A stretch of 24,630 nt of DNA from a virus: positions 1 to 24,630 of IMG/VR virus record IMGVR_UViG_3300028840_002089. The stretch is one strand, 5' to 3'. Both the position numbers and the translations under genes were made by a program. A model generated the notes under the pieces. It was not told the origin of the DNA, searched no databases, and saw nothing but the letters and a program-made list of their open reading frames with translations. Shown here piece after piece: positions 598-20,836 of the stretch (position 1 is the stretch's first letter; each line of letters opens with the position of its first letter).

Positions 598-605
598 AAA
601 AAGGT

Positions 606-625: not shown

Positions 626-793
626 GGGGGGGTTAATTATAAAGGCAGACTTTCCGATAACATTAAGGATAATAATTATTTCAAGCTGGTTTTATGACAG
701 GCGAAACATGGCTCATTGTGGTGTTTTTGCAACAGATTTTGTGTGTTTTTTTCCACACTCAACGTAATGGGCTGAATATATTGGCTATTTCCA

Positions 794-832
794 GTGTGGT
801 GTTTTTACCCCACACAGTGGTAATTTTACCAC
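794..832. promoter_or_regulatory. Candidate operator: two adjacent inverted repeats
   Basis: GTGTGG (794-799) and CCACAC (810-815) form one inverted repeat. Right after it, GTGGTAATTTTACCAC (817-832) is a perfect 16-bp palindrome. It ends seven bases before a TTGACA -35 box, and the related half-site GGTAAATTGTGGTA lies inside the promoter spacer (851-864). This arrangement is typical of repressor or activator sites of phage control regions. No regulator gene is in the window, so the binding protein is unknown. Confidence 0.5.
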
Positions 833-839
833 ATATTTC

Positions 840-868
840 TTGACAGTCGCGGTAAATTGTGGTATGGA
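840..868 (+). promoter_or_regulatory. Sigma70-like promoter for the virion gene block
   Basis: TTGACA (840-845) matches the -35 consensus exactly. A 17-base spacer leads to TATGGA (863-868), preceded by TGG, giving an extended -10 form. The -10 is weak (TAT plus a TG extension), which suits a regulated promoter. It faces the first gene at 1015 and lies beside the palindromes at 794-832. Confidence 0.55.
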
Positions 869-1014
869 TAGACCCATGGAAAATAAATTATCAGCCGGCG
901 GGCTTATCGGTACGCAACAAAACGCCCCTCTTTCCAGGCCCGCGCGATTCCCATCATAATAAAACGCATTACCTCTACCGAACTATAAGCCCCTGTAAAT
1001 AGGGCAGGAATAGG

Positions 1015-1395
1015 ATGAGCAGAGCAGCACGCAACCGATATAAACGCCAGACCTTTGACCGATTTACGGAACGTCCGGCATTCGGGTTCAGCGATTCCGG
1101 CTATTGGTTATGGATTTATGATTTAATGCGCAAAAAACTAATGCTCAAACGCAAACCGGCTAACTGGTCAAGGGCCGGTTTTTTTATGTCCGGCGAAGTG
1201 CCGGCCAGCAAGCGCGGGAGTGTCGACTGGGGCACGCTTTTATTCGTTGTGATATTTTTTTTCGCGATTTTTCTGATGTTCACCCAGGATTTCGGAAGCC
1301 CGAAACTGGCACCATATGACGTAAGAGAGAGACTAGAACAAATCGAACAATGGGAAGAGGACGAACAAAAAAGAACGGGAACAACTTTGAATTAA
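1015..1395 (+). CDS. Small membrane protein, unknown function
   Basis: The 126-residue product is not recognised. The first ~60 residues are basic and aromatic. One strong hydrophobic segment spans about residues 73-90 (core LLFVVIFFFAIFLMF), followed by an acidic, helix-prone C-terminal tail rich in Glu. This suggests a single-pass membrane protein. The start at 1015 has a GCAGGAA ribosome site four bases upstream. An in-frame ATG at 1186 lies directly after a terminator-like hairpin (1154-1185), so a shorter 69-residue form keeping the membrane segment is possible. It is the first gene after the control-region promoter. Confidence 0.6.
   Translation: MSRAARNRYKRQTFDRFTERPAFGFSDSGYWLWIYDLMRKKLMLKRKPANWSRAGFFMSGEVPASKRGSVDWGTLLFVVIFFFAIFLMFTQDFGSPKLAPYDVRERLEQIEQWEEDEQKRTGTTLN
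1154..1185 (+). terminator. Terminator-like hairpin inside the first gene
   Basis: AACCGGC (1154-1160) pairs with GCCGGTT (1174-1180), with a 13-base loop, and is followed by five more T residues. This has the form of an intrinsic terminator but lies within the open frame starting at 1015, immediately before an in-frame ATG at 1186. It could attenuate transcription of the late genes, or the reading frame upstream of it may not be a real gene. Confidence 0.4.
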
Positions 1396-1421
1396 TCAGG
1401 CGGCGCGAGGAGGATTATCGA

Positions 1422-1586
1422 GTGAGAATGGCGGACAGGGGAACGGGTGTGGATGTTGATGATTGCCAGGGGCAAGGCAGGATTAATCTATCGATCGCTG
1501 ACCGGTTGAGGGCGTCTCAGTTGGCCGTTTATGCGCAACTCGGGGCCATAGCTGGTTGGTGGGAGATGGAAGAGGTGAGGGAATAA
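1422..1586 (+). CDS. Small hypothetical protein
   Basis: The product is about 54 residues and not recognised. A GTG start at 1422 is chosen because a strong GAGGAGG (1407-1413) sits eight bases upstream; an ATG at 1428 is an alternative. The frame also extends back to an ATG at 1350, but that would overlap the previous gene by 46 bases without a ribosome site. The C-terminal half is an amphipathic helix-like stretch with two Trp residues and an acidic end. The next small gene starts two bases after its stop. Confidence 0.55.
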   Translation: MRMADRGTGVDVDDCQGQGRINLSIADRLRASQLAVYAQLGAIAGWWEMEEVRE

Positions 1587-1588
1587 AT

Positions 1589-1708
1589 ATGAAAAAAATC
1601 AAATCATCGTTCAGATCGGCGGCGGATCGGGAGCTTGCCAAGGCTGGTAGGAAAAGAAAGTCTCCTGTGGTGAAACCGAAAAAGGCTAAGAGGAAAGTTG
1701 GGTATTGA
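1589..1708 (+). CDS. Very small basic protein (39 aa)
   Basis: This short frame starts at ATG 1589, behind a GTGAGG ribosome site in the end of the previous gene, and stops at TGA 1706-1708. The product has about a dozen Lys/Arg residues in 39, including RKRK and KPKKAKRK, so it is probably disordered and nucleic-acid binding. It sits between a small hypothetical gene and the small terminase gene. No family is recognised. Confidence 0.5.
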   Translation: MKKIKSSFRSAADRELAKAGRKRKSPVVKPKKAKRKVGY

Positions 1709-1720
1709 TGGTCCGACAAA

Positions 1721-2158
1721 ATGGATACACAGGGCTGGACAAAGGCGAAAATCCTAAAATATCACAAGCTATTGAAATACCTATCAAATCCAGACAATGC
1801 TGAGGTAGGTGTAGAGTTTTTAGCGTGTGAGGTTTTGGGGTACAAGCAACGGAATACGATTTACTCTGCGTTTAAGTGCGAAGAACTGACCGAAATATAC
1901 GATGAAGGATTGGCATTATGTCGAAAACAATGTGCCCGGTTATTGCGAAGTGTAGACCTGGGGATGTTGAAGCAAGGCGCGGCGGGAAACCCTGCGGCAG
2001 CTAAACTCGTTTATCAACGCATCGAAGGATGGTCGGAGAAAATAAGATTCGGGACCGATGATATCGACAGCGCAATCGAGCGGGAATTGGAGAGAATGGC
2101 CGGAGCCAGCAAAGATACAGATGTTGGAACGCCTCCAGTCGATGCCGAGCCCGAATAA
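1721..2158 (+). CDS. Putative terminase small subunit
   Basis: Small terminases bind phage DNA at the packaging start and load the large subunit. The 145-residue protein fits by position (directly before and overlapping the large subunit), by size and by pattern. It is all-helical, with a putative helix-turn-helix near residues 36-60 and a central segment (LLRSVDLGMLKQGAAGN, about 75-91) like the oligomerisation helices of small terminases, followed by a charged, Asp/Glu-rich tail. The start is ATG 1721; an in-frame TGA at 1706 rules out a longer form, and no clear ribosome site is seen. The assignment rests mostly on context. Confidence 0.65.
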   Translation: MDTQGWTKAKILKYHKLLKYLSNPDNAEVGVEFLACEVLGYKQRNTIYSAFKCEELTEIYDEGLALCRKQCARLLRSVDLGMLKQGAAGNPAAAKLVYQRIEGWSEKIRFGTDDIDSAIERELERMAGASKDTDVGTPPVDAEPE

Positions 2159-3725
2159 GCTTAGTGATTTTACCCGCTACCAGGATGACCCCGTCGGGTT
2201 CGCAAAAGACGTTCTGGACATCACTGTCACTCCCGACATTGCCAAGATGCTGGAGAGCATTCGGGATAATCGGATCACAGTAGCCAGGAGCGCCACGGGG
2301 ACCGGCAAAAGCCACGGTGCGAGTGTGGCGTCTATTTGGTTTTACAAGTGTTTTCCGGATAGTTTTGTCAGGACAATCGCAAATCCCACGGAAAATCAAA
2401 AAATTCTATGGGGTGAATTATCGGCAATGACCGAAAGACATCCTGATTTATTCAGCGATGACACGATTAAGTATTTCAGCATTAAGCGGGGGCCTAAAGA
2501 TTTTATTGAGCCTCTAACTGTCCCCACGACAGGTGCCGAGGCAGTTCGGGAAGGTAAATTTTCCGGCAAACATCATGCCCATATGCTCTATTTGTTCGAT
2601 GAGGGTGATACCGTTCCGGATTTTGCATATCGGGGAGTTGAGGGGTGTATGTCCGGGGGGCTCATTGTCCGGCTGTTGATTTTATTCAATCCTCGCTATA
2701 GCGCGGGATACCCGTATAGGCTGGAGCATAAAGACAAATCAGCAAATATTATTCATTTGAGCGCATTCAATCATCCCAACGTTATAACAGGCCAAGAGAT
2801 TATACCGGGCGCAGTCAATCGGTCAACGACCGTCCAGCGTATCCGTCAATGGTGCCGACCGCTGAACAAAGAGGAAAAGGCAGGCAAAGACACATTCGAA
2901 CTCCCTAAGTTCTTGGAAGGCGTCACGGATGATGGAGGAGATCCGCTGAAGGCAGGTTTTTATAAGATCATGGAACCAGCTTTTTCCTACATGGTTTTGG
3001 GTGAGTACCCTGCTCAGTCTCAGTTTCAACTAATCAGCCGGGAATGGACAGCGATGGCACGTTCACGGTGGGACGCCCACGTTGCAAAATTCGGAGAAAT
3101 ACCCCCCAGGGGCACTCAATGCCTCGGGGGACTGGACGCTGCGGAAATGGGGGATGATGTCAATTGCGACTGTTTCAGGTGGGGCGGGTACGTTGAGAGA
3201 TTAATCACCTGGGGCGGGGTTGACATGATGGAAACCGGCGACAGGGCGGCCAGGAAATACCGCAAACGCCGGATGATCCAGCAAAACGTTGATGCGATCG
3301 GGGTGGGCGCCGGGGTTGCTCCCCATATGAGACGTTTGGGGTGCCCTAATGCCATATCGGTAAAAACATCGGAAAGACCGACAAGAAAGTCCGAGTTGGG
3401 CGAATTCGGTACATTGCGCGACCAACTCGCATGGGAGGTCCGGGAGTGGTTGCGTGTGGACCCCGGGGCCATGTTGCCTCCGGACGATGAACTTTTAGAG
3501 GAGCTGCACACGCCGACCTATGACGTCAGCACGGGTAAAGTCAAGGTGATGCCGAAACGCGCCCCGATTGACGCACGGACGGGCACCAGGCGGGCCACCA
3601 TGCACGACCTCTTAAAGCGGTCTCCAAATAAGTTCGATGCCCTGTGCCTCACATTCGCCCCCCGGAAAGACCTCGGGGTGAGGGGCAACCAAGAAATCAA
3701 GCCCAGCGGGTTTGTATGGAGTTGA
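2121..3725 (+). CDS. Terminase large subunit (ATPase/nuclease)
   Basis: This is the DNA-packaging motor. The frame is open from 2058 (555 residues). I prefer ATG 2121 (534 residues) because homologous sequence begins near the following LSDFTRYQDDP; 2058 and 2142 are other options, and none has a good ribosome site. The ATPase domain has a Walker A ATGTGKSH (about residues 58-65 from this start) and a Walker B-like LYLFDEGD (about 156-163). The C-terminal RNase H-fold nuclease shows GLDAAEMGDD as its first acidic motif, then DAIGVGAG, and ends with a SPNKFDALCL segment holding a late acidic residue. It overlaps the small subunit by 38 bases and is followed after one base by the portal gene. 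No broken motif is seen. Confidence 0.93.
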   Translation: MLERLQSMPSPNKLSDFTRYQDDPVGFAKDVLDITVTPDIAKMLESIRDNRITVARSATGTGKSHGASVASIWFYKCFPDSFVRTIANPTENQKILWGELSAMTERHPDLFSDDTIKYFSIKRGPKDFIEPLTVPTTGAEAVREGKFSGKHHAHMLYLFDEGDTVPDFAYRGVEGCMSGGLIVRLLILFNPRYSAGYPYRLEHKDKSANIIHLSAFNHPNVITGQEIIPGAVNRSTTVQRIRQWCRPLNKEEKAGKDTFELPKFLEGVTDDGGDPLKAGFYKIMEPAFSYMVLGEYPAQSQFQLISREWTAMARSRWDAHVAKFGEIPPRGTQCLGGLDAAEMGDDVNCDCFRWGGYVERLITWGGVDMMETGDRAARKYRKRRMIQQNVDAIGVGAGVAPHMRRLGCPNAISVKTSERPTRKSELGEFGTLRDQLAWEVREWLRVDPGAMLPPDDELLEELHTPTYDVSTGKVKVMPKRAPIDARTGTRRATMHDLLKRSPNKFDALCLTFAPRKDLGVRGNQEIKPSGFVWS

Positions 3726-3726
3726 T

Positions 3727-5880
3727 ATGATCTCAGGAGCCAATCCAGCATTACAGCACACACCGGGGTCCGGACGGGGACTACTCTCCTTCATCCCGGC
3801 TGCCGAAACTGACAGGATCAAGGAAGAGGAAGCCAAGAGGGCGGCAGAGGAAACTCAGAACGATGAATTCGTTTCCAATCTCGGGGCGGATTTGGCCCTC
3901 CGGTGGCAGGCGGCGAAGAAGGCCAAGGAGCCCATTGATCGAATCCTCCTGCAATGTCTCAGGCAGAGAAAAGGCGAATATGACCCGCAAAAGCTGGCAA
4001 TGATCAAAACCCAGGGCCTTGCCGAGAATTTTATCAAAATCACAGACATTAAATGCCGGGCCGCCGAAAGTTGGGTCCGTGATATTTTACGACCTCCGGG
4101 CGAAAAACCATGGTCGACCGATGCCACCCCTATTCCGGATCTCCCCCCCGAGATAGAGCAGGAAATCACCATGAGGGCCTACCAGGAGTACCGTAACGCC
4201 CTGATGCTCTACCCGCCACAGGAGGTCGACGCGCTCGACTGGGAAGATTTGATTGACGAAATCAAACACGCCACAGTCCAGAAAATCAAAGACGAAGCCA
4301 AGAGCGCAGCCGAAAACCTGGAGAGGGAAATTGACGATGATCTCATTGAGGGCAAATGGTACGATGCTGTCGATGATATCATCTATGATGTCGTCACGTT
4401 CCCCGCGGCATTCGTTGAAGGACCAATCAAACGCAAAGAAAAGGTTTTGGATTGGGTCAGTCTCCCGGGCGGCGGCTCCATCCCTGCCCCGACCGAAAAA
4501 GTGGTCAAGATGTACGACCGCATTTCCCCTTTCGATATGTATCCATCACCGGGCGCAAAATCACTACAAGACGGATATTATTTTATTAAAGATCGGTTTC
4601 GTAGGTCAGACCTGAACGCCATGGTCGGGGTTGATGGGTATGATGAGGAGTCCGTGCGGTACGTGCTGAAAACCTACGGGCAATCCGGATTCCGCATGGA
4701 CCATGCCGGGGACCATGAGAGGGCGGACGTCGAGGGCAGACCGCACGAAAAAGACGACCCGGAAGGGACCATTGATTGCCTCAAGTATTGCGGTCCGGTT
4801 CAGGGCTCCAAGCTGATCGAGTGGGGGATGAGCAAGGCAGAAATACCGGACCCGGATTTAGACTATGAGATCAAGGCGTATATGGTTGCCAGTACGGTCA
4901 TATCGGCGGTCCTCAATCCTCACCCGCTGGGGAAACGAAATATATTCTCCGCTTCTTTCGTGAAAAAGAACGATTCAGTTTGGGGCGAGGGTGTGCCTCA
5001 GATTATGAGCGATATCCAGGATATTTGTAACGGTTGTGTCCGCGCCATGGTGAACAACATGGGGATGGCGAGTGGTCCGCAGGTGTGGTATTTGGCCGAT
5101 CTTGTTGACCCCACCATGCCAATGACCACCATGCACCCGTGGAAGCAATGGCCGTTTAAGTCCGATGAAATGATCGGGAAGAGTTCCCCTCCCATGGGGT
5201 TCTTCCAACCGGACCCCATTATCGATGTTCTGATAAAACTATATGACTATTTCTTCAAGCAAGCCTCGGAGATTACCGGGATTCCCGCCTATATCTACGG
5301 GAGCGAAAATGTCAAAGGAGCAGGTAAGACGGCCTCCGGACTTTCCATGTTGATGAACGCGGCCTCTAAGGGGCTCAAGATGGTTGTCGGTCACATTGAC
5401 AATGGGATTGTAAAGCCGTCTATCGAAGCCCACTGGCTGACCATCATGCTGGACGATCCGGAAAAAGCCCAGGGGGATATCAAGATTGTTGCCAGGGCCA
5501 GTGAGTACCTCATCATGATGGAGCAGTTGCAGATTCGGAGGATGGAATACCTCGATGCCACGAACAACCCCGTTGATATGCAGATATTTGGCCTCGACGG
5601 AAGAGCGGAAATTCACAGGGAAACACTTCATTCTCTAAAAATGAATACGGACAAGATCCTCCCCGACCGTGAATCCATTATGGCTAGACAGGAAGAAATG
5701 AAGCTGCGGAAAATGCTGGAAGCCATTTCAGCGTCAACCGGGATTCCCGTTGAACAACTTGTTCAAATGGCCTCCGGGGGAACGGCGGGGCCCGGCCAGG
5801 GGCCTGTTGGACAGGAAAAGAGGGCGATTGGCCCCGATGGACAGCCGGTGGCGGGGCAGGATTTCAGGGGGATGCAGTAA
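3727..5880 (+). CDS. Portal protein (P22-size)
   Basis: The portal forms the dodecameric ring at one capsid vertex through which DNA enters and to which the tail attaches. The 717-residue length is close to P22 gp1 (725). Recognisable portal features are DMYPSPGAK, the segment around GSENVKGAGKTASGLSM in the second half, and a helical C-terminal region followed by a Gly/Pro-rich tail. ATG 3727 is chosen because GGAG sits five bases upstream; a TTG at 3712 would overlap the terminase. The position straight after the large terminase is standard. Its last bases (TGCAGTAATG at 5873) are repeated at the end of the next gene. Confidence 0.9.
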   Translation: MISGANPALQHTPGSGRGLLSFIPAAETDRIKEEEAKRAAEETQNDEFVSNLGADLALRWQAAKKAKEPIDRILLQCLRQRKGEYDPQKLAMIKTQGLAENFIKITDIKCRAAESWVRDILRPPGEKPWSTDATPIPDLPPEIEQEITMRAYQEYRNALMLYPPQEVDALDWEDLIDEIKHATVQKIKDEAKSAAENLEREIDDDLIEGKWYDAVDDIIYDVVTFPAAFVEGPIKRKEKVLDWVSLPGGGSIPAPTEKVVKMYDRISPFDMYPSPGAKSLQDGYYFIKDRFRRSDLNAMVGVDGYDEESVRYVLKTYGQSGFRMDHAGDHERADVEGRPHEKDDPEGTIDCLKYCGPVQGSKLIEWGMSKAEIPDPDLDYEIKAYMVASTVISAVLNPHPLGKRNIFSASFVKKNDSVWGEGVPQIMSDIQDICNGCVRAMVNNMGMASGPQVWYLADLVDPTMPMTTMHPWKQWPFKSDEMIGKSSPPMGFFQPDPIIDVLIKLYDYFFKQASEITGIPAYIYGSENVKGAGKTASGLSMLMNAASKGLKMVVGHIDNGIVKPSIEAHWLTIMLDDPEKAQGDIKIVARASEYLIMMEQLQIRRMEYLDATNNPVDMQIFGLDGRAEIHRETLHSLKMNTDKILPDRESIMARQEEMKLRKMLEAISASTGIPVEQLVQMASGGTAGPGQGPVGQEKRAIGPDGQPVAGQDFRGMQ

Positions 5881-5882
5881 TG
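5873..5882 (+). repeat. Left copy of 10-bp direct repeat flanking a cargo gene
   Basis: TGCAGTAATG covers the end of the portal gene (Cys-free ending GMQ, then TAA) and the start codon of the next gene. The identical ten bases recur at 6301-6310, and both copies are preceded by a run of four or more G. The copy may mark where the gene between them was inserted. Confidence 0.7.
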
Positions 5883-6308
5883 ATAAAATCATCAGCGCTT
5901 TTTCCATATTACTTCATACCTGAAGTTATTTCTGGGAAAAGTTTAGTAAACGTCATCAAGAATATTGAGAAAAAACACCCTGAGGTTAATCTTAATTATA
6001 GCGGTTTCATTGAGCGTCAAGGGGATTCTGTCCGTTTTGGTTCTGATATCTTGATTTGTGGTTACATGGAGCTTTTTGTATTTAAAATAACAGAAGATGA
6101 GGCGAGATTATCACGGCCCTATCAAGATTTAGAAAAACAACACTCATTTGCTTTGCTTATTGGCGACACTGTTTCACAGGCATTATTTAATTTGCACCCC
6201 GGAGATTGGAAACTTTTTGCAGGCACATTTACACATTTTAAGAACTTGCCTGACCCTGATGATTTTGGGGATATTCTGGAAATAGAATTTTCTTATGGGG
6301 TGCAGTAA
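5880..6308 (+). CDS. AT-rich accessory protein of unknown function
   Basis: The 142-residue protein is not recognised. It starts in a TAATG overlap with the portal stop and ends in the same kind of overlap with the next gene. Its base composition is clearly lower in GC than the portal gene (about one third GC in its first 60 bases), and both edges carry the same TGCAGTAATG sequence. Together these mark it as a late insertion into the structural operon. The sequence has no signal peptide or membrane segment; it looks like a small alpha/beta protein with an acidic PDPDDFGDILEIEF stretch near the C-terminus, of the sort seen in immunity-type proteins, though that comparison is only a guess. Confidence 0.75.
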   Translation: MIKSSALFPYYFIPEVISGKSLVNVIKNIEKKHPEVNLNYSGFIERQGDSVRFGSDILICGYMELFVFKITEDEARLSRPYQDLEKQHSFALLIGDTVSQALFNLHPGDWKLFAGTFTHFKNLPDPDDFGDILEIEFSYGVQ

Positions 6309-6310
6309 TG
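6301..6310 (+). repeat. Right copy of 10-bp direct repeat flanking a cargo gene
   Basis: TGCAGTAATG here is identical to 5873-5882 and plays the same role: the end of one gene and the start codon of the next. Removing the DNA between the two copies would join the portal gene cleanly to the gene at 6308 without altering either. Confidence 0.7.
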
Positions 6311-6499
6311 CCTCGCGGATACGAAAAGATGAGAGACAAGTTCTTCCAGCAAAAAATAGACGCCTGGAATCGCCGTCACCCTCGAGACAACATGAGCAGG
6401 GCGACCCGGGACCGGCTTTACGATAACGCCCAGGGCAAGGCGGCCCGTATACACAATAGCAACAATCCGGATAATCCGGTCGGAAGGGGGAGGACATGA
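6308..6499 (+). CDS. Small basic hypothetical protein (63 aa)
   Basis: The product is hydrophilic and Arg/Lys/Asn-rich with a helical middle (about residues 5-45) and is not recognised. Its start codon lies in the repeat at the end of the cargo gene, and its stop overlaps the next start as ATGA. Before the cargo gene arrived it would have followed the portal gene directly. The pattern resembles small portal-adjacent proteins often found in podoviruses, but no function can be given. Confidence 0.6.
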   Translation: MPRGYEKMRDKFFQQKIDAWNRRHPRDNMSRATRDRLYDNAQGKAARIHNSNNPDNPVGRGRT

Positions 6500-7041
6500 C
6501 CTTCAACAACAAAACCCTAAACGAAATCAAAGAGCACGACATTGAAAACCTGGAGTTTTTGATGACGCGCAAGGCGAAAACCCACTACCTGAAGGACATG
6601 CACCAGGTCATGTGGTTCATGGGCCAGTGCATGAATACAAGCCTGTCTCGATTGGGCGTCTCGATCGTCCCCGGTATGCACGAAAAGTTTGTCGAACGGA
6701 TTATGAAGGAAAAAGGAGTTCAGGTCGAGCGGCGTAAGTATGAGGATGAAGTTCACCCATGCCCGCTATGCGGTGGTGATGGCAAGATAAAGATCCCGAA
6801 AGAACGGATTCAGCAGCAGTTTAATGAAAACGTCCCCGCAGAGCAGAAGTGCCCGGAATGCGCCGGCAAAGGGACTGTTGAAAAACGGGAAGCATGGAGG
6901 AGCGGGATTTACATCTACAAGGGCAATGAAATCGTTGATTGGATCTCCAAACCGAGGCCTTACCGGAAAACGGGAATTATCGTCAAGCCCGGGCTGCCGG
7001 TCGATGATTGCTTTATGGTCATTACGACTGTGAGGATTTGA
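6496..7041 (+). CDS. Protein with two DnaJ-like zinc motifs
   Basis: The 181-residue product has two CxxCxGxG motifs, CPLCGGDG (C89, C92) and CPECAGKG (C119, C122), as in the zinc-binding region of DnaJ. Together the four cysteines could bind one zinc ion. There is no J-domain. The N-terminal part is helical; the C-terminal part is beta-rich and aromatic. The gene starts in an ATGA overlap and ends in a TGATG overlap with its neighbours, so translation is probably coupled. Its place between portal and scaffold genes suggests a role in head assembly, which is inference. Confidence 0.65.
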   Translation: MTFNNKTLNEIKEHDIENLEFLMTRKAKTHYLKDMHQVMWFMGQCMNTSLSRLGVSIVPGMHEKFVERIMKEKGVQVERRKYEDEVHPCPLCGGDGKIKIPKERIQQQFNENVPAEQKCPECAGKGTVEKREAWRSGIYIYKGNEIVDWISKPRPYRKTGIIVKPGLPVDDCFMVITTVRI

Positions 7042-7328
7042 TGTTTCTTAAACCACCAACAGATACAGAGAAGGCCGAAAGGCTCAATAAGGGCCTTTTA
7101 CGATTATCGGCACTTCCCCAATTTCAAGAATTCCTCGAATTCCTGAAAAACGAAGAGCAAAGACTTTTTCGTTCGAATCGGAAAACCGAGGGAACAAAGA
7201 ACCACAGGCAGCAGGGGGCGCTATTGCTCCTTGAGGACATACTCGACATGACCGATCGCGAAAAGGTCAAGAAAGCTATTGAATCCATAGAGAATAAAAG
7301 AAGAGTGGAAGCGACACTGACCACATAA
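7041..7328 (+). CDS. Small helical hypothetical protein (95 aa)
   Basis: ATG 7041 shares its A with the upstream TGA and has GTGAGG eleven bases upstream, so it is preferred to an earlier ATG at 7008 that overlaps more. The product is highly charged and predicted helical, with a QFQEFLEFLKNEEQRLF stretch and a Lys/Glu-rich C-terminal half. No family is recognised. A strong terminator follows 26 bases after the stop, so it ends the first transcription block of the virion genes. Confidence 0.6.
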   Translation: MFLKPPTDTEKAERLNKGLLRLSALPQFQEFLEFLKNEEQRLFRSNRKTEGTKNHRQQGALLLLEDILDMTDREKVKKAIESIENKRRVEATLTT

Positions 7329-7353
7329 ACAACTCAATACAGGTAATTCAACT

Positions 7354-7390
7354 AAACCCAAGGCGGCTTCACGGCTTCTTGGGTTTTTTT
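7354..7390 (+). terminator. Intrinsic terminator
   Basis: AAACCCAAG (7354-7362) pairs perfectly with CTTGGGTTT (7378-7386), and the T-run continues to 7390. The loop contains a further short GGC/GCC pairing. It has the classical Rho-independent form and separates the portal block from the secreted protein at 7420. Confidence 0.85.
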
Positions 7391-7419
7391 ATTAAAACTC
7401 AAGAAGAAGGAGAGGAAAC

Positions 7420-8094
7420 ATGAAAAAAAAGAAATTTTTGAAATTCGGAATCGTTGTGTTTCTGTTGGCGGCCATGCTGACATTCATGGGTGCGTGGAGA
7501 GAGGTAGCCACGATAACCAAGGGGTATTTTAAAGAGATTCGGAACCTGACCGGTGAAGATCTCAATATTTATCAGCCGAAGTTTCATTCCGGTGTGACTT
7601 TACCGGGTTCAACCCCGATTATCAGCGATCCCGTTGTGGTCGATTTGGCGGGTACGTCTTATTATACCATCGACCGGGCCAATGGGTCTGAGTTCTGGAT
7701 TGACGACCATGAGAGCACCCTCGGCACACGGGTTTCAAGCGGTGTTTCTATTCTTCTACCTAAAATAACCGCAAGTTATGACGGTTACGAGGTAAAAATT
7801 TTAAAAGCCCCAGGGTTAACTTCTCCGGGCGGTTCGGGTGCAACGACCTTCAGCGGCACCACGAAGATTGTTATATCAATTGCAGGAACGACCGCATCTT
7901 CTGGAGTCACAGACCATATATGGAATGCAACAACCGGTGTAACCTATGAGTCACAATATGCCACATGGTCAGGTAGCACTACGGAGTTGTGCGAAGTTTC
8001 TGAAATTGATGCCGTTGGCGATTGGTTGAAGTTTAAAGCTTTGTATGACTCTTCCGGCTCCACATGGTATCAGGTAGGCCGTTACATTCAGTAA
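7420..8094 (+). CDS. Secreted protein of unknown function with signal peptide
   Basis: The 224-residue product begins with four Lys residues, a hydrophobic core (IVVFLLAAMLTFM) and a likely cleavage site at FMGA (about residue 25), a textbook Sec signal peptide. The mature part is rich in Ser, Thr, Gly and Val, predicted beta, and resembles virion or appendage beta-sandwich proteins, but no family is recognised. A GAGAGG ribosome site precedes the ATG. It is the only gene between two strong terminators (7354-7390 and 8117-8157), so it is effectively a separate transcription unit unless readthrough occurs. It is the first of a series of signal-peptide proteins in this virion cluster. Confidence 0.75.
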   Translation: MKKKKFLKFGIVVFLLAAMLTFMGAWREVATITKGYFKEIRNLTGEDLNIYQPKFHSGVTLPGSTPIISDPVVVDLAGTSYYTIDRANGSEFWIDDHESTLGTRVSSGVSILLPKITASYDGYEVKILKAPGLTSPGGSGATTFSGTTKIVISIAGTTASSGVTDHIWNATTGVTYESQYATWSGSTTELCEVSEIDAVGDWLKFKALYDSSGSTWYQVGRYIQ

Positions 8095-8116
8095 AACAGA
8101 GCACGCTATCAGAATT

Positions 8117-8157
8117 TTAAAACCTCAAGGGCTTTTTTGGCCTTCGGGGTTTTTTTA
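8117..8157 (+). terminator. Intrinsic terminator
   Basis: AAAACCTC pairs with GGGGTTTT (one U-G pair), and AAGG with CCTT further up the stem, with a one-base bulge between. The stem is followed by a run of seven T. It lies 22 bases after the secreted-protein stop and before the scaffold gene. Confidence 0.8.
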
Positions 8158-8215
8158 TGCCGACCCGAATCCCGTTCGCATTAGCAACGGCTCGGGCGGC
8201 TAAGTCAGGGAATCC

Positions 8216-8248
8216 CGGCAGTAGGGCGACGGCCAAGCTCTACTGCCG
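8216..8248 (+). promoter_or_regulatory. Stable hairpin in the scaffold-gene leader
   Basis: CGGCAGTAG (8216-8224) pairs perfectly with CTACTGCCG (8240-8248) around a 15-base loop. It lies 12 bases before the AAAAGGAGA ribosome site of the scaffold gene. With no T-run it is not a terminator. It could protect a processed mRNA 5' end or set translation level. The rest of 8158-8272 shows no gene or tRNA. Confidence 0.5.
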
Positions 8249-8272
8249 ACTCCCCGCAAAAGGAGAATCAAT

Positions 8273-9298
8273 ATGGCAATCCCAGATCAAGCATTGGCTG
8301 CCGAAAAAAAAGCCGACGAAATGTTGGAAAAAATGATCAATGACGAGACCCCCGGCGAAGAAACACCGGATCTCGACATTGAAGGAGAAGAAAAGGAAGT
8401 CGTTCCGGAAGGTGAGGAACCCGGTCAGGAGCCCGGCGAGGAGCCTGTAGAGGGCCAGGAAGAAGATGCCCCGAGAGAGGATACGGTTGATTACTGGAAG
8501 CAGCGTTTCAAGGTGGTGGAAGGTAAATTGGGGGAAGTCACTACCCTTGTCGATCGAGTCAATAGCCTGACGATCCAAAATGCGGAGTTGTCCCGGCTGT
8601 TGACTGATGCCCGAAAGCCCAAAGAAGATGAGGGGGATGAAGAACCCCCGGAAGATGGGCAGACCTTCCTTAACCTCATGACCGAGGAGGAACGGGAGGT
8701 AGTCGATAGGGATCTCGGTGAGGATTCTCTCGACATTATCGGTAAAGTCGTTCAACGGATAGCCGATGATGCCGTGAAGCCGGTCAAGGATAATGTTGAG
8801 ACGATCCACAGGGAAACCGCGAAAACCAAGGAAGAAGCATATTACGATACCCTCGACGCCGCTTTCCCTGATGGTGAGTGGGAGCGGTGGAACAAGGACC
8901 CGAATTTCAATAACTACATGGCGACCCAAAAACTCCCCTATACCGATACTCCCTACAAGATTGTCCTCCAGGAAGCGGATCGGGCCCTTGATGCCGGTAA
9001 GGTCATCGAAATCATCAACGATTACAAAAAAGCGAATGATCTTCCGGTGTCTCGGAAGAAACCCGTACCGGAGAAGAAACCCGGGCCTCCGAAAAAGCAA
9101 GAACACGTTGACCCGAAACGCGGTGCAGGGCCGGAAATTCCGTCAACCACCACAGGAGACGGAAAGATCTGGACCGTGAAGGAAATTCGGGAATTCTACA
9201 AGGATTCCGCGATCGGGAAAAAGTACACCGAAGAAGAACGGCTAAAAATAGATAAGGATATTTCCAACGCCCACTTGGAAGGGCGGATCAAACAATAA
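8273..9298 (+). CDS. Putative capsid scaffolding protein
   Basis: Scaffold proteins direct capsid protein into a correctly sized procapsid and then leave. The 341-residue protein is placed directly before the capsid gene. It has a Glu/Pro-rich acidic N-terminal third (about residues 20-70), a coiled-coil-like stretch (about 75-115), further acidic linkers, and a Lys/Pro-rich segment (about 262-290) followed by a short helical C-terminal domain ending in ISNAHLEGRIKQ, likely the capsid-binding end. This build is typical of podovirus scaffolds. AGGAG precedes the ATG. The call rests on position and composition, not on a sequence motif. Confidence 0.8.
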   Translation: MAIPDQALAAEKKADEMLEKMINDETPGEETPDLDIEGEEKEVVPEGEEPGQEPGEEPVEGQEEDAPREDTVDYWKQRFKVVEGKLGEVTTLVDRVNSLTIQNAELSRLLTDARKPKEDEGDEEPPEDGQTFLNLMTEEEREVVDRDLGEDSLDIIGKVVQRIADDAVKPVKDNVETIHRETAKTKEEAYYDTLDAAFPDGEWERWNKDPNFNNYMATQKLPYTDTPYKIVLQEADRALDAGKVIEIINDYKKANDLPVSRKKPVPEKKPGPPKKQEHVDPKRGAGPEIPSTTTGDGKIWTVKEIREFYKDSAIGKKYTEEERLKIDKDISNAHLEGRIKQ

Positions 9299-9304
9299 AA
9301 TTTC

Positions 9305-9358
9305 CGGGTCTGACGAGCGAGGGTTTTTACCCGAGTGGCGGGGGCCGGTTCTCCCGCC
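9305..9358 (+). promoter_or_regulatory. Structured leader of the capsid gene
   Basis: Two hairpins lie between the scaffold stop and the capsid start. CGGGT (9305-9309) pairs with ACCCG (9329-9333), and TGGCGGG (9336-9342) pairs with CCCGCCA (9353-9359). The first holds a run of five T in its loop but none after the stem, so neither is a standard terminator. A strong AAAGGAGA ribosome site follows at about 9398-9405. They may stabilise the capsid mRNA. Confidence 0.45.
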
Positions 9359-9411
9359 AGCCTGGACAGTAGCCAACCGGGGTGAATCTACCAAAAAAAA
9401 GGAGATGAATT

Positions 9412-9549
9412 ATGGCAGATTATCCAGTTTCGGTAGGCGTTACAACCATGTCTTCAACGTACATTCCGGAGATATGGAGTGGTAAAACCCTTGTTAAATT
9501 TTATAAATCGACGGTGTTCGGGGAAATCGCGAACACCGACTATGAGGGT
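9412..9549 (+). CDS. Major capsid protein, exon 1
   Basis: The first 46 residues of the capsid protein. They carry the conserved opening of P22-coat-like capsid proteins (STYIPEIWSGKTLV, then FGEIANTDYEG). The frame meets a TAA at 9550-9552, which is the first codon of the intron, so unspliced RNA yields only this short peptide. The exon ends GAGGGT, which pairs with GCCCTC in the intron (9566-9571) to form the P1 helix with a U-G pair at the splice site. The ribosome site AAGGAGA is eight bases upstream of the ATG. Joined to exon 2 the protein has 303 residues with a phase-0 junction. Confidence 0.9.
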
Positions 9550-9758
9550 TAATTGAGATAATTTGGCCCTCTTTAAACCCTGTGAATTGCTGGAACACCC
9601 TAAAGCCTGTACGCCACAACGTGGCCGGTAACGGCGAGCGTGATGGCCTGAAAAGCGACAGGATGAAACAATGGGCAATCAGCAGCCAAGCCCCCCGGAA
9701 ACGGGGTGAAGGTTCAACGACTAAGGGAAGTAGCCTAAACTTCGGCAAGGCAAAACCC

Positions 9759-10349
9759 TCACGAGCGCAGGGCTTTTTTTCGAGGTTTCTTGTCAGGGCC
9801 TCTACCTTTTTTGCCGATATGGTGTTTTGCGGTATGTGCGGAAAGCGGCATTATTTCAAGGTTCTCAATGCGATTGTCGGCTTTGTCTCCATTTATGTGA
9901 TGGATCAATTCCCTTGGGTCAAGGATTCTGCCAAGGCGTTCTTCCATGACAAGCCGATGCTTTCTAACGTACCCTTTGCTGTCAGCGTGTGGGTGTTCAG
10001 GACATTGGACCATGATGTATCCGTTGTGCGTAATGATGTACCCTTTATGGTATCTGTCGGGAATGGCGATTCCGTGTTCTCTTCCTGCCCTGGAAATAGA
10101 GGAAGAGGAAAACTTAAGGATTTTGCCAATTTCGGGGGCAGTAAAGCCTTTAGCAGCAAGCCCCTTCACTTTGTCAGTGGGTACAGTTCGGCGCTTTTTT
10201 TCAATGCCAAACCTATTCATGTAATTCAGGACACATTTTTTACTGACACCATATTTTTGGGCAATTTTTACGGTAGAGTGAAGATCGCTGTAGTCTTCCT
10301 CAAGCATTTGCTTGGTAAACACTACATTAAGTATTCTTCTTCCTTGCAT
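9759..10349 (-). CDS. HNH homing endonuclease encoded antisense in the intron
   Basis: The enzyme would cut intronless copies of the capsid gene, so that repair copies the intron in. The 196-residue product has two helix-turn-helix-like segments (about residues 24-50 and 58-94), likely for target recognition, then an HNH_3-type domain: GYVRKHRLVMEERLGR (126-141), LIHHINGDKADNR (148-160, with H150, H151, N153, D158, N159), ENL and a distal H172. The Lys/Arg-rich tail may bind DNA. A strong GGAGG lies seven bases before the ATG on the minus strand, and a promoter-like pair lies further upstream at 10375-10404. Expression opposite to the intron RNA is unusual: the gene must be read from its own promoter. 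Confidence 0.92.
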   Translation of the reverse strand: MQGRRILNVVFTKQMLEEDYSDLHSTVKIAQKYGVSKKCVLNYMNRFGIEKKRRTVPTDKVKGLAAKGFTAPEIGKILKFSSSSISRAGREHGIAIPDRYHKGYIITHNGYIMVQCPEHPHADSKGYVRKHRLVMEERLGRILDPRELIHHINGDKADNRIENLEIMPLSAHTAKHHIGKKGRGPDKKPRKKALRS

Positions 10350-10374
10350 AACTTAACCTCCTGTGTTTTGGGTA

Positions 10375-10404
10375 ACTATATCACCATAAGCACCCATTTC
10401 GCAA
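10375..10404 (-). promoter_or_regulatory. Sigma70-like promoter for the antisense endonuclease gene
   Basis: Read on the minus strand, TTGCGA (10404-10399) and TATAGT (10380-10375) are 18 bases apart, matching 4 of 6 and 5 of 6 consensus positions. The -10 lies 25 bases upstream of the endonuclease start codon, leaving room for the GGAGG site. It falls between the endonuclease start and the 3' half of P7, so it does not disturb the catalytic core. Confidence 0.5.
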
Positions 10405-10480
10405 GTAAAAAGATGATATAGTCTGAGCTTGTCGGAGACGGCAAGAAGGCAGGATAAAGAGCCTGTCGATAACACAACTG

Positions 10481-11254
10481 GAAATCAAGGCATACGGCGA
10501 TAAGGTCCACATCCGGATTATCCCCGACATTACCATCAATGACTATACCATCGGGCAAAAGCTCAACCGGGAACGCCCGGCCACGGCAGACGTTGAACTC
10601 GATATCGATCATGGCAAGTATTACTCGTTCAAGATCAACACGGTCGAGAAGGCCCAGGCGGACATCAACTATATTGAAAAGTGGTCCGACGATGCCGGGC
10701 AGCAGATGTCGATTAAAATTGATAGTGATATTCTGGGCGATGTTTACTCCGATGCCCATGCGAGCAATGCCGGGGCCACGGCGGGGGTTAATTCCTCCGC
10801 GTTCGATCTCGGTACGGCGGCAGCCCCGGAGAGCATCGATAAAACCAATATTCTCGATTATATCGTCGATCAGGGGACCGTCCTGGATGAACAGAACGTT
10901 CCGCAAACTTCCCGGTGGTTGCTCTTTCCCCCGCTTTTCTGCGGTATGATCAAGAAATCCGACCTGAAAGACGCTTCATTGGCCGGGGACGGAGTATCGA
11001 TCATGAGGAATGGGAGGCTTGGGACCATCGACCGATACACCATTTATTCAACCAACAACCTGAACTCTACTGCGGGCGTTTTCGATTGCATGTCGGGACA
11101 CCCGACCGCCATCACTTTCGCCTCTCAGTTGGTCGAAAACCGGATCATCCCGGATCCTGACGACTTCGGGGATATCATGGAGGGTCTACAGGTCTTCGGG
11201 TACAAGGTTATCAAGTCCGAATCCCTGGTTCATTTCGTGGCCCAGAAAGCGTAA
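10481..11254 (+). CDS. Major capsid protein, exon 2
   Basis: This exon gives 257 residues and completes the 303-residue capsid protein. The frame is open through the splice site, and the joined sequence reads TDYEG followed by EIKAYGDKVHIR, the continuous conserved segment expected in P22-coat-like (HK97-fold) capsid proteins. Further family-like parts are PDITINDYTIGQ, the strand-rich YYSFKINTVEKAQ and the C-terminal DRYTIYSTNNL and KVIKSESLVHF. It has no start or ribosome site of its own at the 5' edge; an internal ATG at 10706 is not needed. A GC hairpin follows the stop at 11260-11280. The insertion point lies in a highly conserved codon stretch, as is usual for homing introns. Confidence 0.92.
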   Translation, partial: EIKAYGDKVHIRIIPDITINDYTIGQKLNRERPATADVELDIDHGKYYSFKINTVEKAQADINYIEKWSDDAGQQMSIKIDSDILGDVYSDAHASNAGATAGVNSSAFDLGTAAAPESIDKTNILDYIVDQGTVLDEQNVPQTSRWLLFPPLFCGMIKKSDLKDASLAGDGVSIMRNGRLGTIDRYTIYSTNNLNSTAGVFDCMSGHPTAITFASQLVENRIIPDPDDFGDIMEGLQVFGYKVIKSESLVHFVAQKA

Positions 11255-13160: not shown

Positions 13161-13892
13161 ATGAATCGTAAATTTCCATTGATCATTGTACTATTTCTGG
13201 TTCTTTTCTTTTCCTGCCACTCCTTGTTTGCGGCCTCCCGGAGCACGAACGACAAGACCGTTGCGGATCTCGTTGCAGAATCCCGGTATCTTCTTGATGC
13301 GATAACGGAAAGCGGCACAACCGACCCGATGTTCCCCGATGCCTTCATGGAGGTGTGGGTAAACAACGGGATTAAGAACGTCGCCTCCTGGACGCATTGC
13401 GTGGAAGACTCCGAACGGCATATTCTGAACAGCGGTACGTCCGAATATGCCATGACCTCCAATTACATCACCATCAAAAAGGTCATGTATCAGAGCGGGG
13501 CGACTGATTACAAATCGTTGACCCACGGAACCGACGATGCAAGAGGAAAAAACGAAGGTAACGTTGCTCATCCAGAGTTCTGGTATGAGGGGATTGGTAC
13601 GGTCGGCGTTTACCCCCTGCAGGATGCCGAATACACCACAGTCACAGGCAACACCATCTATGTGACGTTCGTTCCCACCCACACGACTCTTGCCGCAGGC
13701 GACACCGTTACGACCCCGCAACAATACAACGATTTGATTGTCTACTATACGGTCGCCAAAGCCCTTTTCAAAGACCGGAAGCTTACTGCACTCAGGGTTG
13801 TCATGGAACTTTACGCAATGGAAGCCGATCGATACAGGCAGGATTTCATATACAAGCCAAAAAAATCATTGGATGAGGTTGTAAATCAATAA
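13161..13892 (+). CDS. Adaptor-like protein with a Sec signal peptide
   Basis: The 243-residue protein starts with MNRK, a strong hydrophobic core (LIIVLFLVLFF) and a likely cleavage site after SLFA (residues 21-24), so it should be exported or membrane-anchored. The body is like phage head-tail adaptors: a helical start (TVADLVAESRYLLDAI), a central DPMFPDAFMEVWVNNGIKN segment, and a C-terminal helical pair (YNDLIVYYTVAKALFKD, then MELYAMEADRYRQDF). GAGGTAGG precedes the ATG. If the resemblance is right, export is surprising for a protein that should bind the portal in the cytoplasm. The signal peptide could also be an added membrane tether. Adaptor assignment is moderate; the signal peptide is clear. 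Confidence 0.65.
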   Translation: MNRKFPLIIVLFLVLFFSCHSLFAASRSTNDKTVADLVAESRYLLDAITESGTTDPMFPDAFMEVWVNNGIKNVASWTHCVEDSERHILNSGTSEYAMTSNYITIKKVMYQSGATDYKSLTHGTDDARGKNEGNVAHPEFWYEGIGTVGVYPLQDAEYTTVTGNTIYVTFVPTHTTLAAGDTVTTPQQYNDLIVYYTVAKALFKDRKLTALRVVMELYAMEADRYRQDFIYKPKKSLDEVVNQ

Positions 13893-14447: not shown

Positions 14448-14708
14448 TTGAAAAAGAAATTTATTTTTTCATTTTTGGCGGTCTTTGCGATTCTTTCATT
14501 TTCATTTTTTGCATGGGGTTGGATGCACAAAGGACCGTGGGACGGTACAAAACCATGGAGCAGGTTTGTCCCATGGAAGGTCTTATTCCCGGCAGGAAAT
14601 CCGTGCTGGTCGGACGGAGAATCAAGCCTTTATACTTCTTCATCTGCGAACAAGTCTATCGTTCGTTGGTCGGACGGAGAATCTTTTCTTATTGAGGGAA
14701 ATCCATGA
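14448..14708 (+). CDS. Small secreted protein with internal 20-residue repeat
   Basis: The start is a TTG at 14448, five bases after AGGGGA; no ATG in this frame fits. The 86-residue product opens with MKKKFIFSFLAVFAILSFSFF, a signal peptide or membrane anchor, followed by a Trp-rich, short mature part. WSDGES occurs twice, 20 residues apart, each time encoded by the same 17 bases. The stop overlaps the start of the beta-helix gene (ATGA), so translation is coupled. Function unknown. Confidence 0.55.
   Translation: MKKKFIFSFLAVFAILSFSFFAWGWMHKGPWDGTKPWSRFVPWKVLFPAGNPCWSDGESSLYTSSSANKSIVRWSDGESFLIEGNP
14607..14683 (+). repeat. 17-bp direct repeat, 60-base period
   Basis: TGGTCGGACGGAGAATC occurs at 14607-14623 and 14667-14683, exactly 60 bases apart and in the same reading frame, encoding WSDGES both times. 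The bases between and after the copies are not alike. This is either a decayed tandem duplication or a conserved functional sequence. Confidence 0.8.
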
Positions 14709-16084
14709 AAAAATTAATTTTATTCTGCGTTTGTTTAATCGTTTTTTACGTGCCGACAGCCTGCTTTGGTGCGGCTTATACGGCCACCGGGGACGGTCTT
14801 TTTGAGGCTGCGGCCACCTGGGGCGGCGGGGGATGGCCGGACACAGCGGGCGACACATTTACGATTCCGGCGGGCATGGCGGTACTCGTTTCACAGGAAC
14901 ACCGGCACGCCCTCGGGGAATCACAGGTGAACGGCACGCTTGGAATCGCCACAAATCTGAACAATACGGTAGGTTTGCGTTTTGGGGATGCGGACCTGAA
15001 TGTAGCATCCGGGGCCACACTGATAATGCTCGAACAGGAAACGGGAGGGGTCAACTTGCCCGTCGAGTCCGGAGACACGGCTTACCTGGAGTGGGACACA
15101 ACGGCTGATAATGCCTCCGGGGTGTCTTTGGCTCAGGGGGCGATATTCTGGGCCAAAGGCACGTTGAGCGGCACGACTTATGTAGGGGCCTTGGCCGATG
15201 ACGCTGAAAGCCACGACGACGACAACGACATCAAAACCGTCTCCGCCATGGGCTGGAGTGTCGGGGACGAGTTGGCCATACACACCAAGCACACATGCCT
15301 AACATCTACTTGCTACCTGACCGATGTTTCCTTTCGTAAAATCAACGCCATATCCGGCACATCTATCACGCTTGAAGCCTACGGGGGCAACCCTGCGGCA
15401 GACAGCGGAGTAACGACCGTAAATACGGGCTGCGGGAGCACATGGACAGCGAGGGTTATCAACCTAACACGGAATGTCCGGGTCGAAAAGGTGGATTATT
15501 TGCCTAACCCAGGCAAGTACGGTGGGACAAACAGGCCGAGAATTGTTCACAACGCTACGGCACACGGTAACTTTGAAGTCACCCTTAGCAAAATATCCAT
15601 CGCTGGGCACAGCCAGATTGATTTGCCTGTCGGATACAACGACCTTTGGGAACTCGATGACGTGGTCATAAAACACCAGGGGTACGCTTTTGACGAAAAT
15701 AGCCAAGGCTTTGATTTTAACGGTGTCGCAACTAACCTGTCTTACTTTTGCGAAGATGGATGTATTGAAGTAACTGCTGATGGCTTTATTTTTGCAAACA
15801 CGGGAGCTTATCGTAACACCAACAGGGGAATCACCTCCGACGCTGATTATTTTGCGATCAGGTATCTATCGAGCGGAACGCTAGTTAACTCTACGTTTAC
15901 GGGCGATGTCTACGCAAGCTATGGTACTCACCTTGGAGGCTACAACAATATTTTTAACGGCACTCATTTTTTTGGCAACGGATACACGATGTTTTGGGGC
16001 GGAACTGGGCACACTTTTATAAATTGTGAGTTCGGCTGGACGCCTGAAGGGTCAGGGGTGACGAACGTCTCCGACGACTGGTGA
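14705..16084 (+). CDS. Secreted beta-helix appendage protein, N-terminal part (ends at in-frame TGA)
   Basis: The 459-residue product starts with a signal peptide (LILFCVCLIVFYVPTACFG, cleaved near residue 23). It continues with a G8-like opening (ATWGGGGWPDTAGDTFTIPAG, here shown at 37-57 only in outline: W, WP, D, TIPAG key positions). Turns of a right-handed beta-helix follow, with Asn/Gly-rich coils such as GYNNIFNGTHFFGNG and HTFINCEFGW near the end. It is probably a virion appendage or surface polysaccharide-binding protein. Cysteine pairs (CLTSTC, CEDGC) suit an oxidising compartment. The TGA at 16082-16084 interrupts a frame that stays open to 16714 and continues the same type of coil (LVNCKTEG), so this looks like the first 459 residues of a 669-codon gene. 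Confidence 0.7.
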   Translation: MKKLILFCVCLIVFYVPTACFGAAYTATGDGLFEAAATWGGGGWPDTAGDTFTIPAGMAVLVSQEHRHALGESQVNGTLGIATNLNNTVGLRFGDADLNVASGATLIMLEQETGGVNLPVESGDTAYLEWDTTADNASGVSLAQGAIFWAKGTLSGTTYVGALADDAESHDDDNDIKTVSAMGWSVGDELAIHTKHTCLTSTCYLTDVSFRKINAISGTSITLEAYGGNPAADSGVTTVNTGCGSTWTARVINLTRNVRVEKVDYLPNPGKYGGTNRPRIVHNATAHGNFEVTLSKISIAGHSQIDLPVGYNDLWELDDVVIKHQGYAFDENSQGFDFNGVATNLSYFCEDGCIEVTADGFIFANTGAYRNTNRGITSDADYFAIRYLSSGTLVNSTFTGDVYASYGTHLGGYNNIFNGTHFFGNGYTMFWGGTGHTFINCEFGWTPEGSGVTNVSDDW

Positions 16085-16093
16085 AGCTGTCAG

Positions 16094-16119
16094 CAATTAG
16101 AGGCCAGGTTGGTCAATTG
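16094..16119 (+). other. Hairpin just downstream of the in-frame TGA (SECIS-like candidate)
   Basis: CAATT (16094-16098) pairs with AATTG (16115-16119). After a three-base bulge (AGA), GGCC (16102-16105) pairs with GGTC (16111-16114) with one G-U pair, leaving an apical loop AGGTT. It begins nine bases after the TGA, with the loop GG about 22 bases from it. Bacterial SECIS elements lie in this range and need a G in the loop. The stem is short, so this is only a candidate. Confidence 0.3.
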
Positions 16120-16714
16120 TAAAACAGAGGGCAGGGGCAGCGATAACGGAACGACAAAAACTGGCGGGTTTCAATTCGGATCAAGGACATACGAACATGC
16201 CCATACCATTATAACCAGCGAACATCACGACCAGGTTTTAAACGCACACTATACATGGTTTCGGAACGGAGACATAGAAAAAGTTGCCGCCGACGGTTCC
16301 GGTGTGACGCCAACACAGAACTCAATGGGGGTTTCCGGTGGAGATGTCATTGAGTGCAGGTTTGTTTATTCTGATGTGAATGAGGTGTCCCCCCTATCCC
16401 CGATTCGGAATCACCAGGTTTGGGCGCAGGCGGATACAACAAAGACATATCGGTATTATATCCAATCAAACTATACAACAAACATCACCGATATCAAGCT
16501 AACCGCCGAATACCTGGACACCGCATCGAGCGGACATATCGCCACAAAAGAGGCGACCGCTACCATAGCTCCGAGGTCAAATACGGCAGACTGGAGCCAA
16601 TACATAGAAATTGAGGTCACACCGGCAGAAGACGGCTGGGTTCGTCTGCAACTCGACATTTACCAATACGAGGCGTCCAAGTACGTTTGGGTGGACCCGG
16701 AAGTGAGGTATTAA
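16109..16714 (+). CDS. C-terminal part of the beta-helix protein, or separate 201-aa protein
   Basis: This frame is the same as that of the gene at 14705 and is open from 16085, right after the TGA. As a separate gene it would start at TTG 16109, five bases after AGAGG, giving 201 residues without a signal peptide. Its first residues (LVNCKTEGRGSDNG) look like one more coil of the upstream beta-helix, then a beta-rich C-terminal domain ends in YVWVDPEVRY. Three readings are possible: readthrough or selenocysteine insertion at the TGA, restart at TTG, or a nonsense mutation or sequencing error. The stop TAA overlaps the next ATG as TAATG, so this part is translated at least in the intact operon. 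Confidence 0.6.
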   Translation: MVNCKTEGRGSDNGTTKTGGFQFGSRTYEHAHTIITSEHHDQVLNAHYTWFRNGDIEKVAADGSGVTPTQNSMGVSGGDVIECRFVYSDVNEVSPLSPIRNHQVWAQADTTKTYRYYIQSNYTTNITDIKLTAEYLDTASSGHIATKEATATIAPRSNTADWSQYIEIEVTPAEDGWVRLQLDIYQYEASKYVWVDPEVRY

Positions 16715-19995: not shown

Positions 19996-20036
19996 GCTAA
20001 AACTTTGGTGACCAAGGTTTAGTGAGGTTTGAGGTA

Positions 20037-20462
20037 ATGAATATGAACACCGCAACGATTGAGCCATGTTTGATTTTAACAGTAGGCTTGCCGAGAAGTG
20101 GCAAGAGCACGTGGGCACACAAGCAAAAATGTCCAGTTGTGAACCGGGACGCTATCCGCCTTGCCTTGCATGGACAGGCGTTTATCGTTAACGCTGAGCC
20201 GATGATTACAGCCATTGAAGAATACATGGTTAAATCCCTATTTCTTGCGGGGCACAAAAAAGTCATTGTTGATGCGACGCACTTGAAAGAAAAGTACATC
20301 AAAAGATGGGATGTTGGTCCATGGGACTTGCAAACACACATTCTTACAACATCAAAAGAAGTTTGCATTGAGCGAGCAAAGGCAGACAACAGAGAAGACT
20401 TAATACCAATAATCGAAAGAATGGCAGGGGACAACGAGTGGGACAACCGATCCTCGCAATAG
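20037..20462 (+). CDS. T4 Pnk-like polynucleotide 5'-kinase
   Basis: Enzymes of this family phosphorylate 5'-OH ends of RNA or DNA with ATP. The product (about 141 residues) has Walker A GLPRSGKST (17-25), then VVNRDAIRLALHG like the substrate-binding segment of T4 Pnk kinase, and VIVDATHLKEKYIKRW like its later conserved segment. It is close to the T4 kinase domain in size but lacks the fused phosphatase; a HAD phosphatase gene overlaps its end by 25 bases. Start: ATG 20037 (GTGAGG nine bases upstream); ATG 20043 and GTG 20022 are alternatives. The pair may repair nicked tRNA or DNA ends produced by host defences. A nucleotide kinase role cannot be excluded. Confidence 0.8.
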   Translation: MNMNTATIEPCLILTVGLPRSGKSTWAHKQKCPVVNRDAIRLALHGQAFIVNAEPMITAIEEYMVKSLFLAGHKKVIVDATHLKEKYIKRWDVGPWDLQTHILTTSKEVCIERAKADNREDLIPIIERMAGDNEWDNRSSQ

Positions 20463-20836
20463 ATTTTGATGGCGTTTTACACAGTTATTCAAGCGGATGG
20501 CAGGGACCACGCAATATTCCTGACCCACCTGTAGAGGGATCCATTGAATGGCTGGAAGACCTTTTAGGGTGTCCTGATTATTTCGGGATAGGGCCCCGAT
20601 ATAAAGACTTCAGGGTTATGATATTTTCATCCAGAAGTCGGTATATTGGTGGACGCAGGGCAATGAAAAAATGGCTTGTGAAGCATGGGTTAGATGTCAA
20701 TTACCTTGAGCTTATTAAGTTTCCGCTTATGAAACCTCCTGCTTTTTTACAAATTGACGATAGGGCTATTGCTTTTAATGGCCAGTTCCCGACAGTGAAA
20801 GAAATGAAGGCTTTTAAGCCGTGGAATAGGAAATGA
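20438..20836 (+). CDS. HAD-family phosphatase, partner of the kinase
   Basis: The 132-residue product has HAD motif I AIDFDGVLHS (D9, D11), motif II Ser in IFSSRS (about 62-67), a Lys at 99 before motif IV, and motif IV QIDDRAI (D107, D108). It starts at GTG 20438, seven bases after AGGGG inside the kinase gene, so the two are translationally coupled. In T4 Pnk a 5'-kinase and a HAD-type 3'-phosphatase are fused in one protein; here they are separate, overlapping genes. A joint end-healing role is inferred from this layout; a free nucleotide phosphatase role is possible. Confidence 0.78.
   Translation: MGQPILAIDFDGVLHSYSSGWQGPRNIPDPPVEGSIEWLEDLLGCPDYFGIGPRYKDFRVMIFSSRSRYIGGRRAMKKWLVKHGLDVNYLELIKFPLMKPPAFLQIDDRAIAFNGQFPTVKEMKAFKPWNRK

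Follow-up and report, generated by a model that had tools for sequence, protein, structure and literature searches.

Does an in-frame TGA within a phage beta-helix gene specify selenocysteine, does it serve some other programmed purpose, or does it simply break the gene? The question arises from the window analysed here, the whole 24,630-base stretch of DNA that makes up virus record IMGVR_UViG_3300028840_002089. A frame opened by ATG 14705 and ending at 16714 is interrupted once, by a TGA at 16082-16084 (codon 460), and a first-pass annotation had listed five options for this codon, namely selenocysteine insertion, programmed readthrough, restart at TTG 16109, nonsense mutation and read error. 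The window also encodes a terminase at 2058-3725, a portal of SU10-like type at 3712-5880, a major head protein at 10706-11254 and, at 13161-13892, an adaptor of SU10 type (Pfam SU10_adaptor, 37.6 bits over residues 33-205), and this set marks it as a fragment of a short-tailed phage. All features of the interrupted gene given below lie on the plus strand.

We examined how TGA is used elsewhere in this phage. TGA was the terminal codon in 6 of the 16 other genes of the window, the terminase included (TGA at 3723), in agreement with the earlier view that it is an ordinary stop here. Reassignment of TGA to an amino acid would fit the open frame on either side of codon 460, but it was refuted by these terminal TGAs, and the 16 genes contained no other internal TGA. 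The chance of a code change is therefore close to nil. Because this phage uses TGA as an ordinary stop, the main product of the gene would be a protein of 459 residues that lacks the C-terminal domain.

The two sides of the TGA were then compared. The part before the stop (14705-16084) has 459 codons for a leader, a G8-like domain and a predicted beta-helix. The part after it (16085-16714) has 209 codons followed by TAA at 16712-16714, and it would encode the last helix rung, a linker and a CBM-like domain. This second stretch had no in-frame stop, whereas the other five frames had 6-10 each, and only 5 of 20,000 first-order Markov sequences with the composition of the post-TGA stretch were open over the same length. 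The in-frame continuation past the TGA is well above chance. A family profile built from nine relatives, with the window protein left out, scored 168.6 bits against the part before the TGA, 154.7 bits against the part after it and 326.9 bits against the joined protein. Judged by these scores, both sides of the TGA are one protein and one gene. The initial observations that the frame from 14705 stays open on either side of a single TGA and that the protein style is alike across it were both upheld. A frameshift in place of a stop was ruled out because the frame and the family match reach the TGA from both sides, and the match crosses it without a gap that would point to a lost base.

In leave-one-out scoring, residues 495-669 of the window protein reached 0.89 bits/aa and ranked eighth of the 11 family members, which argues that the C-terminal part has not decayed. 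The N-terminal part (residues 23-300) was the most divergent among the 11 members, with a score of 0.52. Selection acting on a product of readthrough or restart would also account for a C-terminal part that is intact over 209 codons.

The joined protein, searched directly against viral contigs, phages, plasmids, genome contigs and solved structures, returned no relative. The neighbouring genes used as search bait gave nothing useful at the TGA site; the portal led to related phages, and none of their 7 records carried the spike-like gene. A DNA pattern for the NC..FG/R..NC motif matched 28 loci with no relative among them, and a beta-helix in L031 and L032 was set aside as resemblance only. 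A pattern search of DNA for the G8-like motif led to at least three records, whose full-length relatives were 31-32% identical and had open frames. An alignment-based search then gave 14 viral and 6 genome loci. After near-identical loci were merged (L168 and L169 into L167; L171 into L166), the full-length relatives counted were ten: L165, L166, L167, two tandem genes in L170, L172, L174, L175, L179 and L180. L161-L163 contain the same genes as L172, L171 and L166. Left uncounted were L173, which is cut by a contig end, L176, L177, L178, L181, L183 and L184, which do not share the C-terminal part, and L182. Three of 395 genomes from the phylum of G020 gave a match, full-length solely in the genome already known; a repeat search covered largely the same genomes and is not independent of this one. 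A tblastn search of two relatives against named phages gave no match, and no second copy of the TGA site was present among the sequences searched.

All ten distinct full-length relatives, about 23-32% identical to the window protein, are single ORFs of 592-666 codons with no stop inside, and all 14 matches in the 12 records searched were likewise free of internal stops. Two ancestral genes were ruled out, since the two parts are fused in each of the ten; the homologs are thus not pairs of separate genes, which the first-pass annotation had named as an outcome that would refute its reading. In L164 (1480-3420), the C-terminal domain of the spike family sits behind an unrelated N-terminal part, and this domain is a movable module. 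The two tandem genes of L170 (2756-6349) are paralogues within the beta-helix family, and their C-terminal domains are nearly identical.

The residue that stands at codon 460 in the relatives bears directly on selenocysteine. Across the ten relatives this column reads G, V, T, A, K, N, N, N, N and N, with neither Cys nor Trp in any of them. The column falls in a loop, and the three alignment modes that agreed on it were all MAFFT modes. Codon 460 follows the nearly invariant Asp 458, and residues 453-462 around the TGA were predicted as a low-confidence loop (AlphaFold2) in which the position itself is variable. According to a passage of a selenoprotein-prediction paper (PMC12013277), all known selenoproteins, the bacterial ones among them, now have Cys homologues. 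In the portion consulted of the Sargasso Sea survey (PMC1088965), Cys homologues were demanded in more than half, and cases resting on a single sequence were kept as candidates only, given sequencing error. With Cys at this column in none of the ten relatives, selenocysteine is not supported.

Selenocysteine inserted at the TGA and steered by the downstream hairpin, as had been proposed for this locus, would draw on an in-frame TGA inside a conserved protein, on the local sequence U-S-C and on a hairpin that has a G in its loop and lies at a permitted distance. A bulged hairpin was indeed predicted at 16093-16120, beginning 8 bases past the TGA, with an apical loop GGU closed by A-U (AGGTT), and it showed no sign of function. 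Its stability was compared with that of 200 shuffled sequences at three lengths, giving z = -0.56 with 50/200 as stable for 44 nt, z = -1.65 with 16/200 for 47 nt and z = -0.64 with 45/200 for 69 nt. The hairpin passed a crude SECIS-like test (stem of at least 4 pairs, loop of 3-14 whose first two bases include a G, distance from the codon of 16-37 bases, energy of -7.8 or lower; the limits are not those of bSECISearch), and so did 475 of 5704 codon positions (8.3%) in 17 window genes. A scan of 15900-16400 against Rfam at a lax threshold returned a 13-bit chance hit as its sole match. The hairpin is unexceptional and at chance level; the earlier description of its bulge and loop stands, and its likeness to a SECIS is shared with the background.

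Formate dehydrogenase is an example of a bacterial selenoprotein gene with a SECIS. The interrupted gene resembles such genes in its single in-frame TGA and the hairpin that follows, and differs from them in lacking a Cys homologue, in a hairpin at background level and in having no redox fold. Neither a redox-type active site nor an oxidoreductase fold was found in the predicted model, which has a beta-helix and a CBM-like domain instead. ARAGORN found no tRNA gene in the 24,630-base fragment. Among the papers listed in a literature search none named a phage-encoded selenoprotein, which is no proof of absence in print. Selenocysteine was rejected on the lack of Cys at the site in the relatives, and its probability is very low.

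A second programmed use of the codon would be readthrough, in which most ribosomes stop at the TGA and some decode it with a near-cognate amino acid, so that a short form is made together with a long form that bears the CBM-like domain. Phage Q-beta uses UGA in this way at about 1 in 15, as described in an excerpt of PMC8067240, and its coat/A1 pair resembles the present case in that stopping at a UGA or passing it could decide the length of a phage protein. The intact, family-typical C-terminal part and a stop near a domain border would also suit readthrough. Unlike in Q-beta, readthrough in this gene is a candidate only, and the long form is the rule in the relatives, which always make it. 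None of the ten relatives compared, all at about 23-32% identity, has the stop, and the RNA structure downstream is not unusual. We regard programmed readthrough as unlikely.

The TGA might instead close a first cistron, with restart at TTG 16109 (16109-16111) giving a C-terminal protein of 201 aa that could join in trans. This TTG is in frame, 24 bases past the stop, and is preceded at 5 bases by AGAGG, with a predicted Shine-Dalgarno duplex of -5.8 kcal/mol; the occurrence of the C-terminal domain behind another N-terminal part in L164 would also fit a separable product. However, a duplex equal to or better than this one was found at 42 of 275 internal NTG codons of the window genes, and the site before TTG 16109 is not above chance. 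None of the 15 window genes whose start could be read begins with TTG, all of them using ATG (the portal start is not settled). An NTG codon with a duplex of -5.8 or lower occurred in the matching stretch of only two of the ten relatives (L179 and L180), at other places, so there is no consistent internal start, and the fusion of both parts in all ten speaks against a split gene as well. This arrangement is improbable.

Both processes could be joined in one scheme, in which the UGA would be a lineage-specific switch. The phage would make mostly helix-only spikes and would add the CBM-like domain through readthrough or through restart at TTG 16109, the latter opened by the terminating ribosome. 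If true, the outcome would be a mixed set of spikes, some that hold and others that release, although we consider the switch unlikely. Readthrough or restart, if either were true, would offer a simple route for phage spike variation.

We found the best explanation to be one gene cut by a non-conserved nonsense codon in a single assembled sequence, either a recent mutation or a consensus error, with a probability of roughly three in four. Sequence comparison shows that there is one gene, that its stop is not conserved, that no Cys stands at the site and that the C-terminal part is intact. The predicted family architecture joins a leader to a G8-type beta-helix and a CBM-like domain, and the gene is uninterrupted in every relative seen. 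In this one assembled sequence a nonsense codon at position 460 breaks it, in a predicted loop that leads from the final rungs of the helix to the CBM-like domain. We infer a recent stop with no programmed role. It would stem either from a nonsense mutation that arose recently in the sampled phage or from an error in the consensus. Among the five options first listed, nonsense mutation or read error is thus best supported, selenocysteine fails, and readthrough and restart are unsupported.

A sister contig, IMGVR_UViG_3300017963_004480, matches window positions 346-9530 at 99.9% and ends there, so the TGA site lies outside it. The two differ by 7 substitutions, two of them at the edge of a segment missing from the window, and by two single-base indels; none of the substitutions creates a stop in the gene frames checked. 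The missing segment, about 163 bases, affects a RusA-like gene (window 208-597) whose N-terminal part is gone, with RusA Pfam positions 49-123 in the window and 1-123 in the sister contig. The RusA loss and the indels indicate that disrupted genes or consensus flaws occur in this contig. Against mutation or error counts the place of the TGA, which lies no more than about 50 residues from the predicted border where the CBM-like domain begins and would be sensible for regulated truncation. If the stop is a mutation or an error, the case is a warning that an in-frame TGA and a plausible hairpin can arise together by chance, and that relatives settle the question.

The architecture of the protein was examined with predicted structures. 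Pfam G8 (PF10162) matched residues 38-88 weakly, at 16 bits against a cut-off of 22.9, and the protein had no Pfam match above cut-off and no significant PHROGs match. For a family in this position, the alignment of relatives gives annotators a handle. AlphaFold2 with a ten-row alignment gave a model of moderate confidence, with a pLDDT of 65.5 overall, good at residues 21-80, poor over much of the helix and mostly 82-94 in the blocks from residue 571 onward; the protein folded alone gave a pLDDT of 35, and that model was set aside. Foldseek led from the predicted model to phage tailspikes. With VIA-align, the TMEM2 ectodomain (PDB 8c6i; PF10162) gave the best structural match, which covered residues 27-522 (Z 17.1, rmsd 5.8, 416 aligned); CBM4, CBM16, CBM35 and CBM61 modules matched residues 513-669 (16241-16711) with Z 8-10. 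The resemblance to TMEM2 comes with 12% identity and the Pfam score below cut-off, and the window holds a phage gene with a CBM-like end. From this model we infer that the spike-like protein has a G8-type beta-helix and, after it, a CBM-like beta-sandwich of sugar-binding type. The family is probably of a kind known from phage spikes and from enzymes that degrade polysaccharides.

A similar order of domains is predicted relative to the LKA1 gp49 tailspike (PDB 4ru4), which ranked second in Foldseek (E 1.7e-6) and in which a beta-helix is followed by a C-terminal beta-sandwich that is likely sugar-binding. A beta-helix with a C-terminal jelly roll is the architecture given for gp49 in the part consulted of PMC5701251. 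The likeness is a general resemblance only, with identity of about 10% and TM-scores below 0.2, and the window protein differs at its start, where it has a signal-peptide-like leader and a G8-like domain.

This leader covers residues 1-24 (14705-14776), a hydrophobic N-terminus identified by a home-made hydrophobicity rule and not by SignalP. It would rather suggest export than a virion location. Signal-peptide-like leaders occur in a run of genes of this phage, with starts at 7420, 13161, 13908, 14705, 16714 and 21031, and the head-tail adaptor (13161-13892) is among them. For proteins of the neck or tail, export would be odd. The same home-made rule was positive for 7 of 27 ORFs in the window, 0/20 in L012, 0/19 in L007, 4/18 in L206 and 7/20 in L204, and the adaptor-family proteins in G006-G008 are without such a leader.

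Two further observations concern other genes of the window. A group I intron at 9540-10445 (Rfam RF00028, 67.8 bits) interrupts the major head protein gene, with exon 1 from about 9412 and exon 2 extending to 11254, and the sister contig stops at the edge of this intron. Within the intron lies an ORF (9582-10421), and L009/L010 carry an ORF 31% identical to it in the equivalent place. At 20022-20836, two adjoining genes resemble a polynucleotide kinase (PHROG 505) and, weakly, a HAD-type phosphatase; this pair is perhaps a split RNA/DNA end-repair enzyme.
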